Source of the DNA: an uncultured Actinomyces sp.
Lineage (GTDB): Bacteria; Actinomycetota; Actinomycetes; Actinomycetales; Actinomycetaceae
DNA: 40,243 bases
Reading direction: 5' to 3'
Assembly (NCBI GenBank): GCA_902373545.1
Contig: CABKMZ010000013.1
Coordinates: forward strand, 1-40,243
The translations under genes and the position numbers were made by a program. Under the pieces are notes generated by a model, which did no database searches, had not been told where the DNA came from, and saw nothing but the letters and a program-made list of their open reading frames with translations. Numbering within the stretch: the stretch's first letter is position 1; every line of letters starts with the position of its first letter. Of the stretch, positions 1-39,130 are shown in pieces.

Positions 1-340
1 CGCGCTCGATGATGGCGTGCCCCGCCTCCGTCGCGTATCCGTTGCCCCAGTAGGGTGCGCCGATCCAGTATCCGATGTCAGCGATGGTTGCCTCGGGGGA
101 GTCTGTGTCAATGCGCAGCGCGATCGAGCCCACGATTTCACCGGTCGATCCGAGCGTCACCGCGTAGCTGTCGGGTGCCGCCAGGACGGTCGACAGCGCC
201 TCGTGGGCATCGTCGATGCACTCGAAGGGTTTCCATCCGCACAGCATCCCGATGCGTGGATCGCGGGCCAGCTCGTAGAGCTCCGGTGCGTCCATATCGT
301 TCCAGGGCCGTAAGCGCAGGCGCTGAGTGTGAATGATCAT
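1..340 (-). CDS. GNAT family N-acetyltransferase (RimJ/RimL-like), truncated by window edge
   Basis: The N-terminal 113 codons of an acetyltransferase read leftwards and leave the window. The start is the ATG whose complement ends at 340. The protein opens with MIIHTQRLRLRPW, the usual beginning of the Acetyltransf_3 (RimJ/RimL) group, and has IVGSIALR followed by IGYWIGAPYWGNGYATEA, which is the acetyl-CoA binding motif A of GNAT enzymes. Members acetylate protein N-termini, antibiotics or small amines; the substrate cannot be told here. A purine-rich stretch (GGGAAAG) lies about 10 bp before the ATG on the minus strand. It is divergent from glf. The missing C-terminus lies outside the window, so intactness is unknown. 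Confidence 0.85.
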   Translation of the reverse strand, partial: MIIHTQRLRLRPWNDMDAPELYELARDPRIGMLCGWKPFECIDDAHEALSTVLAAPDSYAVTLGSTGEIVGSIALRIDTDSPEATIADIGYWIGAPYWGNGYATEAGHAIIER

Positions 341-6461: not shown

Positions 6462-7526
6462 TCAGGCACGCTGGAGGGCGCGGGAGACCTCGCCCGGCCA
6501 GGACGGGCCCTCGAAGATGAAAGCGGAGAAGGCCTCGACCAGGTCCGCGCCCGCGCCGATCATGCGCAGCGCGTCCTCGGGCGACGAGATGCCACCCGTG
6601 CCGATGAGAATCTGGTCGTCGTCAAGATGACGTGCCACCAGGGAGACGACCTCCAGCGCACGGGGCAGCAGGGGAGCGCCCGAGACGCCGCCCTCACCCA
6701 GGTCGTGGTTGATCGTCGTGTTCGTGGCGACGACCCCGGTCAGGCCCAGCTCTTTGGTCAGCTCAACGACGGCGACGATGTCCTCGTCGGCCAGGTCGGG
6801 AGCGATCTTGACGAACAGAGGCATGACGCGGTCGGGGGCCCCGGCCTCGCAGCCGCGGCGCGCGGCCTGCAAAATCGGGCGCAGGTGGTCGACAGACTGA
6901 AGGTCGCGCAGGCCCGGCGTGTTGGGGGAGGAGACGTTGACGACGACGAAGTCGACCCAGTGGGCCAGGACCCGCGCGCAGTACTCGTAGTCGGCGGGCG
7001 CGTCGGCCTCGGGGGTGACCTTGTTCTTGCCGATGTTCGCACCCACGATGGCGGCGCGGCCAGCGTGGGTGGAGCGCAGCTCGCGTAACTTCTCGGCGGC
7101 CGCGTCCGCGCCCGCGTTGTTGAATCCCATGCGGTTGCGCAGGCCCCGTTCCTCCATGAGGCGCCATAGGCGCGGCGCTTCGTTACCCGGCTGCGGGCGC
7201 GGCGTCACGGTGCCGATCTCGACGAAGGCATAGCCCAGGGCGCTCATGCCCAGGACGGCCTCGGCGTCTTTGTCCATGCCGGCGGCCAGGCCCAGTCGAG
7301 AGGGCAGGGTGCGGTGGCCGAGGGTGAGGGGGACTTCGGCGCCGCCGACGGTGCGCGTCGGCATGCGCTGGGGATCTACGTAGCCCAGGGTGGCCCGCAT
7401 GAGTCCCCGCGTAAGAGCACAGCGCCCTGCGAGGGAGATCGCACCCAGGCCCAGGTGGTGTGCCTGCTCCGGGTCAGAACGCGAAATGAAGTGTCGGAAT
7501 GTCCAGTTGTACGCGCGTCGGATCAT
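6462..7526 (-). CDS. pyrD: Dihydroorotate dehydrogenase (quinone), class 2
   Basis: This enzyme oxidises dihydroorotate to orotate in pyrimidine synthesis, passing electrons to membrane quinone. The 354-residue protein has the class 2 N-terminal helical extension (residues 1-40, with RHFISRSDPEQAHHLG) that docks on the membrane. The FMN site (GLAAGMDKDAEA, FVEIGTVTPRPQPGN, NRMGFNNAG) and the catalytic NVSSPNTPGLRDLQ segment are present; the catalytic base is a Ser around residues 199-200 (class 1A and 1B enzymes use Cys). IGTGGISSPEDA closes the phosphate site. The start ATG at 7526 has TACCCT ending 7 bp upstream, so a leaderless transcript is likely although the upstream gene ends only 18 bp away. 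No other pyr genes are nearby. Confidence 0.96.
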   Translation of the reverse strand: MIRRAYNWTFRHFISRSDPEQAHHLGLGAISLAGRCALTRGLMRATLGYVDPQRMPTRTVGGAEVPLTLGHRTLPSRLGLAAGMDKDAEAVLGMSALGYAFVEIGTVTPRPQPGNEAPRLWRLMEERGLRNRMGFNNAGADAAAEKLRELRSTHAGRAAIVGANIGKNKVTPEADAPADYEYCARVLAHWVDFVVVNVSSPNTPGLRDLQSVDHLRPILQAARRGCEAGAPDRVMPLFVKIAPDLADEDIVAVVELTKELGLTGVVATNTTINHDLGEGGVSGAPLLPRALEVVSLVARHLDDDQILIGTGGISSPEDALRMIGAGADLVEAFSAFIFEGPSWPGEVSRALQRA

Positions 7527-7544: not shown

Positions 7545-8312
7545 TTAGTCCCACCATGCCCACCACCAGCGCGTGGCTGTTGCGTCTCGGGTGAGGATGC
7601 GCATCTCGTCGGGTGGGATGGCGTCGTCGCCCAGCCCAAGGACGTCGGCGAGGGTGAGCCAGTGCTGGTAGGCCGGGTAGGAGGCGTCGTCGATGGGGCG
7701 TCCCGTGTGTGCGATGATCGCCGACTCGGGCACGCACACGGTGTCGATGCTGACGCGCTCGTCCCAGCGGGGAGCGCGGATGACATATCCTTCGAGCGTG
7801 AGACCGTCGATGCGGGTGGCGGCGCGCAGCAGGTCGGCGATGCGCGGCGCGTTGTTTTGCCGGTCGCTACGTGCGAGCGGGGGTAGGAGGGAGCGCAGCC
7901 TGCGCGCGTCTGCGCCCGACAGGTCGGCGAATCTGGCGTAGTCGCCCGTGTCCCAGCCCTCGCAGATGTAGGGGGAGAGCAGCGCGGTGACGTGGCGGTC
8001 GTCGAGCCAGTGCATGGGCCCGTACATGCCCTCGCGCACGGGGCCCTCCTCGGTGGGGTCCTCACTGCACGAGCAGGTCGCGGGGCTGGGCTCGGCAGAG
8101 GCCGTGGTGTCGAGCGCGGGGGAGACAGCCTCGGTGTGCGCGGACCCCCGGGGGACCCGAGCGGACGAGGCCGTGGCCAGCGCAGCGGTATCGGGGATCC
8201 AATCGGGAGGATCGGCCTCGTCGACTGAGGTGGCCGACACCGACACCGGCACCCCCTCATCGTCATCGATGCGAACATGGGAGGTGGCGGTCAGAGTGAC
8301 TGAGACGTGCAT
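7545..8312 (-). CDS. Protein of unknown function (255 aa)
   Basis: I do not recognise this family. The start at 8312 is supported by GGAAGGAC 7-8 bp upstream; the frame stays open back to 8459 but has no ribosome site there. Residues 1-25 look like a beta strand pair (VSVTLTATSHVRI). Residues 30-95 are a low-complexity Ala/Ser/Pro/Glu linker with CSCSEDP. Residues 95-255 look folded, with MYGPMHWLDDRHVTALLSPYICEGWDTGDYARFADLSG, a VIRAPRWDERVSID segment and an aromatic C-terminus WWWAWWD. No signal peptide or membrane span is visible, so it is probably cytoplasmic. It lies 18 bp upstream of pyrD. Its upstream region holds three TATCCACAGG-type boxes at 30-bp spacing, also found before yraN-comM-dprA. 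Confidence 0.8.
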   Translation of the reverse strand: MHVSVTLTATSHVRIDDDEGVPVSVSATSVDEADPPDWIPDTAALATASSARVPRGSAHTEAVSPALDTTASAEPSPATCSCSEDPTEEGPVREGMYGPMHWLDDRHVTALLSPYICEGWDTGDYARFADLSGADARRLRSLLPPLARSDRQNNAPRIADLLRAATRIDGLTLEGYVIRAPRWDERVSIDTVCVPESAIIAHTGRPIDDASYPAYQHWLTLADVLGLGDDAIPPDEMRILTRDATATRWWWAWWD

Positions 8313-8400
8313 GGCGATGTCCTTCCGTGTGGCGCGGCGGTTGTGCAGCGCCCCTCCAGGATCACGCCACGACAGCTCGCGACGCCAGCCCCGCGCGGGC

Positions 8401-8472
8401 CCCTGTGGATAGCGGGGCGACACGCCGGGGGCCTGTGGATAGAAACGATTCGGTCCCATGCCCTGTGGATGG
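8401..8472 (-). repeat. Three DnaA-box-like repeats with exact 30-bp period (site A)
   Basis: CCTGTGGAT occurs at 8402, 8432 and 8462 on the plus strand (ATCCACAGG on the minus strand), exactly 30 bp apart. The first two extend to TGTGGATAG, one mismatch from the DnaA box TGTGGATAA; the third is TGTGGATGG and sits in a terminator loop. The array is 89-160 bp upstream of the unknown gene starting at 8312. An equivalent array is at 35865-35934. Confidence 0.75.
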
Positions 8473-8483
8473 GCATGGGACCG
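8451..8483 (-). terminator. Hairpin terminator of the DUF3043 gene with a box in its loop
   Basis: Perfect 13-bp arms (8451-8463 and 8471-8483) flank the 7-nt loop TGTGGAT. It is 22 bp downstream of the DUF3043 stop, with a moderately T-rich AATCGTTTCT following on the minus strand. The loop is the core of the third 30-bp-spaced box. Confidence 0.65.
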
Positions 8484-8504: not shown

Positions 8505-9125
8505 TTACTTCGGGAACTCGCCGCGACCCACCTGCGGGCGCGGGGAGCGCCAGCGGCGCGGCATGATCATGCGCGAGAAGGTGTAGTAGCCGGTGCCGCG
8601 CGGGATCTCATCGCGGGGGTGTTCCTGCGTGAAGGCGGCCTTGATTTTACGCCACACGAGCATGGCCTCGACGCCGGTGACGATGAAGGAGCCGTACATG
8701 AGGAGCGTGGAGCCGTAGAGGATGTAGACCTGTGTCTGCTCGGGGATCTTGTTACCAAAGAGCGAGAGGATCATGATGAGGATGATGGAGGCCAACATGA
8801 CGAGGAGAACCCACTCGGAGAACGAGTGGCGGGCATCGACGTAGTCGCGCACAAAGCGGCGTGCGCTTCCCTTGTCGCGCATGGGCAGATGCTTCTCATC
8901 ACCCGTTACCAGGGCGCGCTGTTCGGCTTCCCAGCGGGCGTTGCGCGCCGCCCTCGCTGCCCGCTTTGCTTCCTTGCGGTCGGCGGGCACCAGGGGGCGG
9001 ATACGAGCGGCCTCGGCCTGCTTGCGCTTCGGCGTGGGGCGACCTTTTTTGCCGCCGGGCGTGGTCGAGACAGGCTCAACGGTCGTCGAGGTCTCGTCGC
9101 TATTGTTCTTGCTTCGTCCAAACAC
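8505..9125 (-). CDS. DUF3043 family actinobacterial membrane protein
   Basis: This 206-residue protein is restricted to actinobacteria. The N-terminal 35 residues are polar. They are followed by GRPTPKRKQAEAARIRPLVPADRKEAKRAAR, the basic DUF3043 hallmark, then VRDYVDARHSFSEW. Two membrane helices follow (about residues 105-124, WVLLVMLASIILIMILSLFG, and 133-153, VYILYGSTLLMYGSFIVTG). The C-terminus is basic and ends RMIMPRRWRSPRPQVGRGEF. Function is unknown. The start GTG 9125 has no usable ribosome binding site but has TAGCCT ending 6 bp before it, so it is probably translated leaderless. It is divergent from the M20 dipeptidase, whose start is 58 bp away, and is followed by its own hairpin terminator. 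Confidence 0.88.
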   Translation of the reverse strand: MFGRSKNNSDETSTTVEPVSTTPGGKKGRPTPKRKQAEAARIRPLVPADRKEAKRAARAARNARWEAEQRALVTGDEKHLPMRDKGSARRFVRDYVDARHSFSEWVLLVMLASIILIMILSLFGNKIPEQTQVYILYGSTLLMYGSFIVTGVEAMLVWRKIKAAFTQEHPRDEIPRGTGYYTFSRMIMPRRWRSPRPQVGRGEFPK

Positions 9126-34833: not shown

Positions 34834-35501
34834 CCACCGCGTCGCGTGAGCTTGAGCGCTCGCTTGCCTCTGACTGGGGCATTGTTGCTGGCATGGACGA
34901 GGTTGGGCGCGGCGCGCTGGCCGGCCCCGTTGCCGTCGGCGTCGCCCTGATCGGCGTGCACGCCGGACCCGTGCCTGAGGGGCTGACCGACTCCAAGGCG
35001 CTCACCCCGCGCCGTCGAGACGTTCTCGTCGAGCCTATTCAGTCCTGGGTCCAAGACTGTGCCGTCGGATACGCCTCGCCTCAGGAGATCGACCGGTGGG
35101 GGATCATTGTCGCGCTGCGCCTGGCTGGGCGCCGAGCCCTCGCCGAGGTCGCGAGCCGAGGCCTCGTCCCCGGTGGTGTCCTCTTGGACGGCTCGCATGA
35201 CTGGCTGTCCGAACCCGATGACCTGTTCGGGGCAATCGACGGACCTGAGGATCCGTTCGGCGTCGTCCTTCCCGTGCACATGCAGGTCAAGGCCGACCTG
35301 TCCTGCGCCGTCGTTGCCGCTGCCTCAGTCCTGGCTAAGGTCGCGCGTGACCGTCTCATGACCGACGCCGACGACCCGGGGTACGGATGGGCTTCCAACA
35401 AGGGCTACGGGTCGGCTGCGCACGCTCGGGCCATCGCTGAGCTGGGTGTTTGCGACTTTCATCGCCGTTCCTGGAAGATGCCGACGAAGCCCACAAAGTA
35501 G
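34830..35501 (+). CDS. rnhB: Ribonuclease HII
   Basis: This is a 223-residue enzyme that cuts RNA in RNA-DNA hybrids and single ribonucleotides misinserted in DNA. The catalytic acidic pair is D23-E24 in GMDEVGRGALAGP with the G-R-G hybrid-binding motif. Further conserved segments are LTDSKALTPRRR, YASPQEIDRWGI, LLDGSHDWL and KADLSCAVVAAASVLAKVARDRLM, ending in YGWASNKGYGSAAH. The start ATG 34830 overlaps the lepB stop by 4 bp, so translation is coupled. The order lepB-rnhB-DUF2469-yraN is conserved in actinobacteria. Confidence 0.97.
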   Translation: MTTASRELERSLASDWGIVAGMDEVGRGALAGPVAVGVALIGVHAGPVPEGLTDSKALTPRRRDVLVEPIQSWVQDCAVGYASPQEIDRWGIIVALRLAGRRALAEVASRGLVPGGVLLDGSHDWLSEPDDLFGAIDGPEDPFGVVLPVHMQVKADLSCAVVAAASVLAKVARDRLMTDADDPGYGWASNKGYGSAAHARAIAELGVCDFHRRSWKMPTKPTK

Positions 35502-35543
35502 GGCGCGCCGGGGTGGCAGGGTGACCCCAGGGAGGTTCCCCGG

Positions 35544-35549
35544 CATGAT
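35544..35549 (+). promoter_or_regulatory. Putative -10 for leaderless DUF2469 transcript
   Basis: CATGAT (one base from TANNNT) ends 7 bp before GTG 35557. Confidence 0.35.
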
Positions 35550-35556
35550 GGGGTGC

Positions 35557-35856
35557 GTGAGCGAAGAAATCGAAGGTTACGAAAACAAGCTCGAGCTGGA
35601 GCTTTTCAAGGAATACCGCGACGTCATTGGCCTGTTTAAGTTCGTCGTGGAAACCGAGAGGCGTTTCTACCTGTGCAACCACGTCGACGTCCAGGCGCGC
35701 CCGGTCGGCGGCGACGTCTTTTTCGAGCTCACGCTCACTGACGCGTGGGTGTGGGACATCTACCGCTCGTCGCGCTTCGTGCGTTCGGTTCGGGTCATCA
35801 CCTATAAGGACGTGAACGTCGAGGAGCTGTCCAAGCCGGAGCTCGACATCCCCTAA
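35557..35856 (+). CDS. DUF2469 family protein
   Basis: This 99-residue acidic cytoplasmic protein is found throughout actinobacteria (Rv2901c family). The whole length matches the family: EEIEGYENKLELELFKEYRDVIGLFKFVVETERRFYLCNHVDV, then FFELTLTDAWVWDIYRSSRFVRSVRVITYKDVNVEEL ending with KPELDIP. Function is unknown. The start is GTG 35557 by comparison with relatives, which begin at the equivalent residue; in-frame ATGs at 35545 and 35548 are slightly upstream. It follows rnhB by 55 bp. Nine bases after its stop begins the second 30-bp-spaced box array. Confidence 0.92.
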   Translation: MSEEIEGYENKLELELFKEYRDVIGLFKFVVETERRFYLCNHVDVQARPVGGDVFFELTLTDAWVWDIYRSSRFVRSVRVITYKDVNVEELSKPELDIP

Positions 35857-35864
35857 GTGTTGCG

Positions 35865-35934
35865 TATCCACAGGCCCCTCGTCGTGTCGCGGCGTATCCA
35901 CAGGGTCTTCCGCGTGCCGCTCCCTATCCACAGG
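35865..35934 (+). repeat. Three DnaA-box-like repeats with exact 30-bp period (site B)
   Basis: TATCCACAGG occurs at 35865, 35895 and 35925. The nine-mers are GTATCCACA, GTATCCACA and CTATCCACA, each one mismatch from the DnaA box TTATCCACA. The last copy ends 65 bp before the yraN start codon. Orientation relative to the downstream gene is the same as at site A (8401-8472). Part of the spacer, GTGTCGC, also recurs between the two sites. Confidence 0.8.
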
Positions 35935-35998
35935 GGGCGGTTTTCGCGTTGAACGGGCAGGATGTGCGGGCGCACTGTGGTCGTGGAGGTGAGCTGAC

Positions 35999-36439
35999 AT
36001 GGATTGCTCAACACGACCCGACCGGCGGGTCCTGGGTGCGGCAGGGGAGTATACCGCGCGCCTGATCATTCAAGAGGCGGGCCTGCATGTCCTCGAACGA
36101 AACTGGCGCGACGGTAGGCGCGGAGAACTCGACATTATCGCGCGCGACGACACGGACCCGGCGCGGCCGTACACCGTTGTTGTCGAGGTGCGCACTCGGG
36201 TGGGACGAGCGCGCGGTAGCGCGCTGGCCTCGGTTGATCCGCGGAAGGTCGCTCGGTTGCGCGCGCTCACGGGTGCATGGTGTCGGCAACGAGGCCGGCT
36301 CGGGTCTCGGGTTCGCATCGACGTCGTGGCCCTGACGCTGGATGCGCAGGCGCTGCGTGCCTGGCCCGATCTGGCCGACGCGGATGTGGACCTGCGGAGC
36401 CTGGGTGCCCAGGCACTGTGGCTGCGAGGCGTGCAATGA
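35999..36439 (+). CDS. yraN: YraN/UPF0102 family nuclease-like protein
   Basis: This is a 146-residue protein with the restriction-endonuclease-like fold. Conserved segments are GAAGEYTARLIIQEAGLHVLERNWRDGRRGELDIIARD and YTVVVEVRTRVG, holding the E...D...ExK-like set (the last position is R here rather than K). Family members are thought to process DNA, perhaps Holliday-junction-like forms, but activity is unproven. The start ATG 35999 has GGAGGTGAG 5 bp upstream, the best ribosome site in this region. It overlaps comM by 4 bp. It heads the run yraN-comM-dprA-xerC, preceded by the box array. Confidence 0.92.
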   Translation: MDCSTRPDRRVLGAAGEYTARLIIQEAGLHVLERNWRDGRRGELDIIARDDTDPARPYTVVVEVRTRVGRARGSALASVDPRKVARLRALTGAWCRQRGRLGSRVRIDVVALTLDAQALRAWPDLADADVDLRSLGAQALWLRGVQ

Positions 36440-37983
36440 GCGGGCCGGGTCTTGCACGTACGTATTCGATGAGCGTTGTCGGCATCGAGGGGCATCTGGT
36501 TGACGTCGAGACCTACGCCGGAGCGGGGTTGGTCGCCTTCACGCTGGTTGGCCTGCTGGATACGTCGGTGCGCGAGGCCCGCGACCGCGTCCGTGCAGCC
36601 TTCGAGTCCTGCGGGCTGGACGTGCTGGATCAGCGCATCACGGTCAACCTGTCGCCCGCCGGCATCCCGAAGTCAGGTTCCGCATTCGATCTGGCCATCG
36701 CCTCGTCGATTGCGCTGGCTACTGGCCTGGTGATGCCGCGCGCCTTCGAGGACAGCGTGATCGTCGGCGAGCTTGCCCTCGACGGGAGCATCCAACCCGT
36801 GCGCGGAGTGCTGCCCGCCGTACTCGCCGCGCGCTCGCAGGGCGTGCGCCGCGTCATCGTTCCTGCGGCCTGCGCCCGTGAGGCTGCGCTGGTCTCTGGT
36901 ATCGAGGTCGTCGCTTTCGCCCACCTGGCCGACCTGATCGCCTGGGGCGGGGGAGAGGCAATCAAAGCGCCCTTCCACGGTCGGCTCGGCGTGCGCGACG
37001 TGTGCAGCGTCGTGGAGGCCCAGCCCCCGCTCGACATGGCCGACGTGCGCGGCCAACCCGAGGCCGTCGCCGCGATGGAGGTGGCCGCCGCCGGCGGACA
37101 CCACGTCTTCCTGCTGGGGGAACCGGGTTCCGGCAAGACCATGCTCGCCTCGCGCCTGCCCACGATCCTGCCCGACCTGGACCCCGACACCGCCCTGGTC
37201 ACGACGTCCCTCCATTCGGTCGCCGGCCTCGTGCCGACCGGGACTGCCCTCGTGCGGCGACCTCCCTTCCAAGCGCCACACCACAGCGTGACCATGGCGG
37301 CGCTGATCGGCGGTGGTTCGCGCACGCTCACTCCCGGTGCAGCGTCGCTCGCGCACGGGGGCATCCTCTTCCTCGATGAGGCCGCGGAGTTCGCGCCCTC
37401 CGTCCTGGACTCACTGCGCGAGCCCCTCGAATCCGGCGTCGTCAACCTGCACCGCTCGGGGATCCACGCGCGCTACCCGGCCGCGTTCCAGCTGATCATG
37501 GCCTCCAACCCTTGCCCGTGCGGGGGCAGGCGCGGAGGACGACGCTGCACCTGCTCTTCTCTTGCGAGGAGACGCTACATGGCGCGCCTGTCCGGGCCGC
37601 TGCTGGACCGGATGGACATTCGGATCGACGTGCACACGCCGACTCGGGCGGACATGGCGGCCTCCGGCGTGTCCGATTCGGCGACGATCCGCGAGCGGGT
37701 GTGCGCGGCCCGAGAGCGCAGCCGCCACCGCCTGGCGGGCACGCCCTGGACGTGCAACGCACAGCTGCCCGGGGCATGGATCAGACGCCACTCTGGAATC
37801 GACGCCGAGCTGGTGGCCCAGCTGGACCGGCTCGTCGACGCCGGTGCCTCGTCGATGCGCGGGGTTGACCGAATGCTGCGCCTGGCGTGGACCCTGGCTG
37901 ATCTGGATGGGACACCGACACCTACTTTCGACCACATCGTTGCAGCTCAGCAGCTGCGGAATGGACACGATCATGACAACTGA
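36436..37983 (+). CDS. comM: ComM/YifB family AAA+ ATPase (Mg-chelatase-like)
   Basis: This is a 515-residue hexameric helicase. In Haemophilus and Vibrio the family promotes branch migration during natural transformation. The N-terminal LonC-like domain (GIEGHLVDVETYAGAGLVAFTLVGL, then VNLSPAGIPKSGSAFDLAIA) is followed by the Walker A GEPGSGKTMLA, Walker B ILFLDEAAEF, sensor/cysteine region NPCPCGG with CTCSS, and LSGPLLDRMDIRIDV. The C-terminal helical lid includes MRGVDRMLRLAWTLADLDG. Length is typical. The start ATG 36436 overlaps yraN by 4 bp; the frame is open to 36277 but family homology begins at ARTYSMSVVGIEG. It overlaps dprA by 11 bp. Confidence 0.95.
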   Translation: MSGPGLARTYSMSVVGIEGHLVDVETYAGAGLVAFTLVGLLDTSVREARDRVRAAFESCGLDVLDQRITVNLSPAGIPKSGSAFDLAIASSIALATGLVMPRAFEDSVIVGELALDGSIQPVRGVLPAVLAARSQGVRRVIVPAACAREAALVSGIEVVAFAHLADLIAWGGGEAIKAPFHGRLGVRDVCSVVEAQPPLDMADVRGQPEAVAAMEVAAAGGHHVFLLGEPGSGKTMLASRLPTILPDLDPDTALVTTSLHSVAGLVPTGTALVRRPPFQAPHHSVTMAALIGGGSRTLTPGAASLAHGGILFLDEAAEFAPSVLDSLREPLESGVVNLHRSGIHARYPAAFQLIMASNPCPCGGRRGGRRCTCSSLARRRYMARLSGPLLDRMDIRIDVHTPTRADMAASGVSDSATIRERVCAARERSRHRLAGTPWTCNAQLPGAWIRRHSGIDAELVAQLDRLVDAGASSMRGVDRMLRLAWTLADLDGTPTPTFDHIVAAQQLRNGHDHDN

Positions 37984-39130
37984 CGAGTCAGTATGGGAGG
38001 GGGCCTGGTGGTCTGCCGTCGCCGAACCGGCGGACCCGGCGGCGCGCGCCGTACGTACCGTGCTCGGGGACCGGGCCGGGCGCGAGTGGCTGCAAGCCCC
38101 GTGGTCGGGGGTACCGGCCGCGTTGGGCTCGTCCACGACCGCGGATTGGCCCAAGCAGTGGAATCGGTGGCGCGAGCGCGCCCTCGAGGCAGACCCCTCG
38201 CGCGACCTAGCGCGCGTCGAACGCGCGGGCGGCGGCTTTGTGATGCGGTCGGATCCGCGCTGGCCCGCGCAGCTGGGGTGCCTGGGGGAGGACGAACCCC
38301 TGGGCCTGTGGTTCTTGGGCTCCTTGCCCGAGTCCCCCGCGTGCTCGGGATACGTGTCTATCGTCGGAGCCCGGGCGTCGACCAGTGCGGGCGGACGCTG
38401 CGCGCGCAACATGGCCTACCAGCTGGCGCGCGCGGGATACGGCGTCGTGTCGGGTGGGGCCATCGGCATCGACATTGAGGCGCACCGGGGAGCCATGGCG
38501 GGCGACGGAGCCACCGTGTGCGTGTTGGCCGGCGGCGTTCTCAACCCCTACCCTGCGTGCCACACTGAGGACTTTCGTCAGATGGTGGCGGGCCGCGGCG
38601 TGCTCATCTCCGAGGTGGCGCCCACTGCCCGACCCGCCAAGTGGCGCTTCCTCACCCGCAACCGGCTCATCGCCGCGTGGAGCGCGGCCACCATTGTCGT
38701 CGAGGCCGGGGCTCGCTCCGGCGCCCTGGCGACGGCCAGGTGGGCCTTGAGCTGCGGGCGTGAGCTGGGCGCGGTGCCGGGAGCGATCGACGCTCCGATG
38801 GCGGTGGGATGCCTCGAGCTGGCTCGCAACGGTGCGACGATCATCCGCGACGGGCGCGACGCGGCCGAGCTCGCCGGGCCCATCGAGGCAGACTCCTCCT
38901 CAACCCTCTTTGGTATGCCGGTCGAAGAAGATCAGGGGATCGATGCGCTGGCACCCGTCGCGCGCCGAGTCTTCGAAGCGCTGCCGCGCAGCGCGAGCGC
39001 CACCGTGGCCTCAATCTGCGTGTCCGCGGGCCTTGGGAGGCAGGAGGTGAACCGCGCACTCATGGACCTGTCGGTCGCCGGCCTCGTCACCTCCTCGACG
39101 CGCGGGTGGGCACGCAAGCACAGGGGGTAG
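37973..39130 (+). CDS. dprA: DNA processing protein DprA
   Basis: This is a 385-residue protein that loads RecA on incoming single-stranded DNA during transformation. The Rossmann-type DprA core (about 125-310) contains SIVGARASTSAGGRCARNMAYQLARAGYGVVSGGAIGIDIEAHRGAM, VCVLAGGVLNPYPACH, then FLTRNRLIAAWSAATIVVEAGARSGALATA. An N-terminal SAM-like region and a C-terminal winged-helix (ARRVFEALPRSASATVASICVSAGLGRQEVNRALMDL) complete the usual architecture. The start is ATG 37973 or the in-frame ATG 37961; both lie inside the end of comM and the ribosome site is weak, so coupling to comM is likely. Confidence 0.94.
   Translation: MTTDESVWEGAWWSAVAEPADPAARAVRTVLGDRAGREWLQAPWSGVPAALGSSTTADWPKQWNRWRERALEADPSRDLARVERAGGGFVMRSDPRWPAQLGCLGEDEPLGLWFLGSLPESPACSGYVSIVGARASTSAGGRCARNMAYQLARAGYGVVSGGAIGIDIEAHRGAMAGDGATVCVLAGGVLNPYPACHTEDFRQMVAGRGVLISEVAPTARPAKWRFLTRNRLIAAWSAATIVVEAGARSGALATARWALSCGRELGAVPGAIDAPMAVGCLELARNGATIIRDGRDAAELAGPIEADSSSTLFGMPVEEDQGIDALAPVARRVFEALPRSASATVASICVSAGLGRQEVNRALMDLSVAGLVTSSTRGWARKHRG

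Follow-up and report, generated by a model that had tools for sequence, protein, structure and literature searches.

The window, by which we mean the whole 40,243-base stretch that was analysed, carries two arrays of three short direct repeats ("boxes"), which we call site A and site B. Site A has a DUF3043 gene on one side and, on the other, a gene for a 255-amino-acid protein and then pyrD. Site B has a DUF2469 gene on one side and yraN-comM-dprA on the other. In each case a short gap separates the start of the array from the stop codon of the gene before it (DUF3043 or DUF2469), which runs in the same direction. The features are listed here in order of position, with predicted promoter elements marked as putative.

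6462..7526, minus strand: pyrD (family match)
7545..8312, minus strand: gene for the 255-aa protein (no Pfam and no NCBIfam match)
8359..8364, minus strand: putative -10 of site A, TGATCC (17-bp spacer; the hexamer is identical in relatives)
8382..8387, minus strand: putative -35 of site A, TGGCGT (24 bp from the start of TATCCACAGG, at the +54..57 column peak of 122 aligned sites)
8402..8410, minus strand: site A box 3, promoter-proximal
8432..8440, minus strand: site A box 2
8462..8470, minus strand: site A box 1, upstream-most (a 13-bp hairpin, 8451-8483, follows the DUF3043 gene and has this box's ATCCACA as its loop)
8505..9125, minus strand: DUF3043 gene, upstream of site A (family match)
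35446..35856, plus strand: DUF2469 gene, upstream of site B (family match)
35866..35874, plus strand: site B box 1
35896..35904, plus strand: site B box 2
35926..35934, plus strand: site B box 3, promoter-proximal (a terminator-like hairpin, 35916-35941, has this box's ATCCAC as its loop and leads into TTTT)
35949..35954, plus strand: putative -35 of site B, TTGAAC (predicted from the alignment of 122 sites)
35972..35977, plus strand: putative -10 of site B, GCACTG (kept in relatives)
35999..36439, plus strand: yraN (UPF0102; family match)
36277..37983, plus strand: comM/YifB ORF (family match; the true start is probably internal)
37562..39130, plus strand: dprA ORF (family match; the true start is probably internal)

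The 255-aa gene and pyrD are probably on one transcript.

All six copies of ATCCACAGG reported by the first-pass annotation are where it placed them (8402, 8432, and 8462; 35866, 35896, and 35926), and the window has no others, so that they form two triplets with 30-bp steps. That annotation was also correct in placing the arrays 89 and about 65 bp from the start codons and in giving both the same orientation relative to the downstream gene. In 100 dinucleotide shuffles of the window, ATCCACAGG appeared 0.19 times on average and at most twice, and the four box pairs with 30-bp spacing in the window compare with none in 100 order-1 Markov windows. When both strands were scanned for the 7-mer TCCACAG, only the six boxes matched. 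Allowing one mismatch to ATCCACAGG gave 11 sites in the window, but the five beyond the six boxes are at the level expected by chance (the shuffles had a mean of 7.68, and 23 of 100 had at least 11).

Two of the boxes overlap potential RNA structures. The upstream-most box of site A and the downstream-most box of site B each lie inside a hairpin whose loop is ATCCAC(A) and whose stem takes up the trailing G's. Folded alone, the site A hairpin has an energy of -28.8 kcal/mol (z = -7.4), and none of 200 shuffles was as good; the site B hairpin, within a 96-nt fold, had a z of -2.0, and six of 200 shuffles were as good. Relatives at site A keep ATCCACATGG between inverted arms with the same 30-bp step. 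In another genome (G004), inverted arms with an unrelated sequence flank the box before yraN, and TTTT comes next (L015, by eye). These hairpins raise the alternative that the boxes work in RNA, as terminator loops of the preceding genes. However, boxes 2 and 3 of site A had no unusual fold (z = -0.7; three stretches of the window were folded in all), and many sites keep a constant distance between the boxes and the presumed promoter that follows them, so that the boxes would be absent from the downstream transcript. We consider a role in RNA very unlikely, and the overlap is better read as a terminator and an operator packed compactly together.

Genome contigs were scanned for the box pair (at least 120 stretches, with some Schaalia-type records contributing several). 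Seven genomes that were reached via loci of Schaalia or its relatives contain 39 exact pairs. For 30-bp pairs with up to three mismatches, there were 16 matches in S. odontolytica (G001) and 89 in eight other genomes, two of which are also among the seven. The 11-mer TTATCCACAGG has 19 copies in G001. The backwards control gave 0 for each of these counts in genomes. Across the family, 16 of 200 genomes have the exact pair (control columns, 0), and among 148 genomes of the class, the strict box at 30-bp spacing was found in G001 only. The exact 30-bp form of the array is confined to part of the family. Two sets of records that carry Schaalia-type arrays are named Xylanimonas (352_XCEL; L007/L012) and Sanguibacter (250_SKED; L018/L039/L076), and these are possibly mislabelled Schaalia.

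Both arrays of the window are present at the orthologous promoters of relatives. The site B array recurs before yraN at four loci (L012, L050, L157, and L209), and the site A array recurs before orthologs of the 255-aa protein at four others (L047, L080, L158, and L229). Most of these recurring arrays have two clear boxes rather than three. The positions are kept though the DNA between the boxes differs, which argues, together with the empty backwards controls, against chance or a functionless expansion of a repeat. Several matches outside the Actinomycetes are indeed tandem or coding repeats (L006, L016, L029, and L040), but as an account of the arrays in the window we give this explanation almost no credence.

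To describe the geometry of the sites, we used 122 distinct sites from the window, Schaalia, and other members of the family; these include orthologs from close relatives and are therefore not independent. In 38 of the 122, the upstream box and an ATG are 89 or 90 nt apart, and no other offset from 70 to 96 accounts for more than seven. An offset of 89 or 90 places the boxes near -88 and -58. Counting 24 bp from where the proximal box begins, there is a preference for T-T/G-G-A, which resembles a -35 element, and there is a weaker preference around the -10. The 122 sites were picked with up to three mismatches, so their GG columns are biased. Where the ATG is at +89/90, the promoters appear to be leaderless. 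Given their putative -10 elements, the genes in the window would have short leaders.

Which genes lie downstream? In this clade, the other pairs are not placed at random but precede competence-type genes. Neither of the two outcomes that the first-pass annotation named as refuting its proposal (arrays missing from orthologous promoters of close relatives, or motifs with this spacing at random positions) is therefore seen in the clade. In G001, box pairs precede a DUF4244 pilin-like gene (Pfam) with a TadE-like ORF (L151, by eye), Ssd/CpaE, yraN (PF02021, adjoining the array), a paralog of the SSB family (L160), an M23 peptidase, the 3-methyladenine glycosylase Tag, a WXG100 protein, a second WXG-like protein (L162, by eye; no Pfam match), a 1012-aa FtsK/EccC-like protein (FtsK_SpoIIIE above the cut-off, EccC below), a TPR protein, two proteins that by eye resemble AbiEi/DUF559, and the ortholog of the 255-aa protein. 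Tag, the type VII genes, and the TPR protein are not classical competence genes. Matches to TIGR01259 (ComEA), Ssd/CpaE, and EccC were all below the NCBIfam cut-offs. Seventeen of the 19 copies of TTATCCACAGG in G001 are upstream of genes of the competence-type set, some of which were labelled by eye; the other two are upstream of dnaA and before a GmrSD_C nuclease ORF. Two of the 17, 29 bp apart, lie 210-240 nt before a DUF559-type ORF.

The loci that we read in the eight other genomes show the same gene types as in G001. Paired boxes lie 90 nt upstream of comEA in four genomes (G001, L243; G047, L208; G117, L224; and G197, L261). In G001 the proximal box is exact and the distal box is degenerate, and the distal box is also degenerate in G117. 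For G197, comEA was the one downstream gene read among the remaining regions that were fetched. ComEC (PF03772) is present in all six genomes searched, and the TadA ATPase is downstream of a box pair in G004. In sum, the element precedes comEA-comEC (in the four genomes and, as described below, at 15 of 27 loci across the class), genes of the DNA-uptake pilus (DUF4244, TadA, and the below-cut-off Ssd/CpaE), and genes that handle single-stranded DNA (the SSB paralog and yraN-comM-dprA).

Several observations concern individual genes in this set. G197 has two copies of the comEA promoter and gene start, separated by about 3.2 kb (G197:C7:116604 and 119844; L260 and L261). The first copy is a truncated ORF of 230 aa with no family match and the second is a full ComEA, so this is either a partial duplication or an assembly artefact. 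The G197 ORF at L112 begins like ComEA without a family match and is a truncated duplicate, with the full copy in L261. DUF559-type or DUF559-like proteins repeatedly have promoters with the box pair (L391, L156, L161, L228, L075, and L033; about three are in G001) and may act on incoming DNA. Two of these (L391 and L075) score above the DUF559 cut-off and one (L033) just below it, while the AbiEi/DUF559-like proteins that were recognized by eye (L156, L161, L228, L001, and L003) have no family match. Type VII-like genes (FtsK/EccC-like and WXG100) also have box promoters, both in G001 (L031:3744-6782, L152, and L162) and in G047 (L206), with L162 and L206 assigned by eye. This hints that an apparatus resembling a type VII secretion system has a role in the uptake of DNA or in competent Schaalia cells.

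The first-pass annotation had tied the 255-aa protein to DNA uptake, replication, or repair. Among the 99 homologs listed, none has a precomputed Pfam domain. An alignment of 25 homologs shows a conserved WWxWWD at the end. In the AlphaFold2 model, the N-terminus is of low confidence and residues from about 100 to 255 form a confident domain; this model gave no usable match in the PDB. What holds of the earlier claim is the tie to genes of DNA uptake and processing, which we infer from the shared promoter alone.

We then asked how far the box extends within the Actinomycetes. For ComEA, DUF4244, and YraN, we took the 30 best-scoring loci each, from 79 genomes of the class each, so the sample is not random. 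Three comEA loci and three yraN loci were dropped because of short flanks, which left 27 of each; G001 is among the 27 for comEA. Start codons were chosen by a script that took the first one with TANNNT just upstream, or else the earliest, and that made no use of the box. Fifteen of the 27 comEA loci have a TCCACA that starts at -59..-56 (shuffles had a mean of 0.014 and a maximum of 1), the other 12 have none at these positions, and TGTGGA was not found within 200 bp upstream of comEA. TCCACAG is found within 300 bp at 14 of 27 yraN loci and 12 of 30 DUF4244 loci (and not at the other 13 and 18). In the 250 bp upstream, sense and antisense copies of TCCACAG number 29 and 0 for comEA, 23 and 1 for yraN, and 17 and 4 for DUF4244; the rest of the loci have 5 and 0, 2 and 1, and 4 and 6, but this background is mostly coding, so the antisense count is the better control. 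The distance from one TCCACA to another in these loci falls most frequently at 28-30 (11 of 31), and 17-22 forms a further cluster (9 of 31).

A second pattern, TCCACAG followed by 35-39 bases and CTAGCGT, matched 90 times in 146 genomes, versus 28 times backwards (about threefold), and had no match in G001. We read 30 of these 90 loci, and 12 of the 30 contain comEA (5), recA (3), radA (2), yraN (1), or CpaB (1). Two of the comEA assignments are by Pfam (L365 and L373) and three by resemblance; the CpaB assignment rests on SAF by Pfam, with CpaB below the cut-off. The remaining loci read have other families (DUF6338, DUF4258, kinase-like) or no assigned family. Beyond the family, exact pairs precede genes for DUF559/AbiEi_4 (L075), DUF222 (L056), and Ssd/CpaE-like proteins (L024, below the cut-off) and, by eye, an M23-type gene (L002) and DUF4244-type pilins (L004 and L068); the other matches there are repeats or, by eye, oriC-like regions. 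Three DUF222-type genes (L056 by Pfam, L062 and L108 by eye), in Mycolicibacterium and another record, have their start codon about 90 nt downstream of a box pair. A single box at about -58 is thus found widely across the class, and the strict 30-bp array seems to be its elaboration in Schaalia; the loci that lack the element in the ranges given (12 of 27 for comEA, 13 of 27 for yraN, and 18 of 30 for DUF4244) count against this.

The loci across the class also bear on whether the regulon might instead be a DNA-damage or repair response, with the uptake genes as a subset. Matches to the single box include recA (L354, L361, and L368) and radA (L364 and L367), and the Tag glycosylase is among the targets in Schaalia. 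By eye, the three recA promoters, which are from other Actinomycetes, have both the box at -58 and TGTCGG upstream of the -10, which we take to resemble the PafBC motif, suggesting dual control of recA by competence and damage. As at promoters of the PafBC (RecA-NDp) system, these are recA-type promoters with a TANNNT -10; unlike the PafBC element, which lies near the -35, the box is at about -58. However, none of comEA, the Tad pilus, DUF4244 pilin, and M23 genes, and the WXG100/EccC-like genes has a repair function, and transformation also makes use of recA, radA, and dprA. We think that a repair regulon is improbable.

Who binds the box? DnaA is a natural candidate, and the uptake genes would then be under the control of the replication initiator, for instance during replication stress. 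As the first-pass annotation had observed, the boxes in the window are close to the DnaA box TTATCCACA: five of them have one mismatch and the box at 8462 has two. The commonest forms in the arrays have 0-2 mismatches, and the commonest form in Schaalia has none. Boxes with a DnaA-like pattern around dnaA (in G001, G047, G117, and G197) include TTATCCACAGG, TTATCCACAGA, and TTATGCACAGA, and the dnaA-region boxes of five genomes are similarly degenerate; in G001, one TTATCCACAGG is upstream of dnaA itself. All eight genomes examined have a single protein with PF08299 (Bac_DnaA_C), and DnaA is universal, as a class-wide box would require. On the other hand, the base before TATCC, which was outside the search motif, is T in just 52-61% of array boxes and C in 24-35%. 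The comEA boxes at -59..-56 begin with TT[AG] in 5 of 15 cases, while G follows TCCACA in 15 of 15 (read by eye). The spacing differs as well: E. coli DnaA in vivo prefers boxes 2-3 bp apart, according to PMC11317965 and as a rule known for E. coli only, and the step here is 30 bp from start to start. The likeness to DnaA boxes is that of an asymmetric 9-mer in direct copies, and the differences from the DnaA regulon are the 30-bp spacing, the relaxed first base, the fixed place upstream of the -35, and the uptake genes as targets. The sequence would permit DnaA-type binding, but we regard DnaA as an unlikely activator and rank a dedicated one above it. A more far-reaching proposal, that DnaA directly activates a competence regulon throughout the Actinomycetes via 30-bp-phased variant boxes at -58/-88, that this couples uptake to replication status, and that the 255-aa and DUF559-type proteins are new parts of the transformation machinery, seems to us rather doubtful.

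The arrays are, in our view, quite probably operator sites of a competence (DNA uptake and processing) regulon that would be bound by a putative dedicated activator. This activator would bind the asymmetric box TATCCACAGG, with the core TCCACAG. Two or three boxes, three helical turns apart, would present it along the same side of the helix, about -58, -88, and sometimes -118 from the transcription start and just upstream of a weak -35, where it would help RNA polymerase to start. Its targets in the window would be the 255-aa gene (probably with pyrD) and yraN-comM-dprA, switched on along with genes for ComEA/EC, the pilus, SSB, and nucleases at other chromosomal positions. We infer activation rather than repression, and a single binder. 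The shared regulator proposed by the first-pass annotation is supported, as both arrays recur at orthologous promoters of relatives and the other paired boxes there precede competence-type genes. The organism in the window would be predicted to be naturally transformable; our literature search found no report of natural transformation in S. odontolytica. We found no gene for the regulator in this analysis, and the portions of the literature available to us name no direct competence regulator.

Short regulatory boxes are known from other competence systems: ComK boxes in Bacillus subtilis, the SigX cin-box in streptococci, and CRP-S/Sxy in gamma-proteobacteria. As in the ComK, SigX, and CRP-S regulons, one short element here precedes genes of the comEA/comEC, pilus, ssb, dprA, and comM types. 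Unlike in those regulons, the DNA word is different, the boxes are direct repeats at 30 bp, the promoters often look leaderless, the pilus is Tad/Flp rather than T4P/ComG, and the regulator is putative. Another close parallel is the competence system of Micrococcus luteus, which is also actinobacterial and has ComEA/EC and Flp pilus machinery, but no operator is defined for it in the parts of PMC4322843 and PMC12849477 that were available. According to PMC12849477, the upstream signals or cascade in M. luteus are still to be identified, and little is known about the control of competence in the Actinomycetota.

The observation in the first-pass annotation is right, and it is more important than was first thought. 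An operator with a fixed geometry would provide a handle for DNA-affinity capture of the regulator and would allow the regulon to be predicted in other genomes. Used as a tag, the box promoter may also place uncharacterised proteins in DNA uptake or processing, among them the 255-aa family, DUF4244, some members of DUF559 and DUF222, and the type VII-like proteins of Schaalia.
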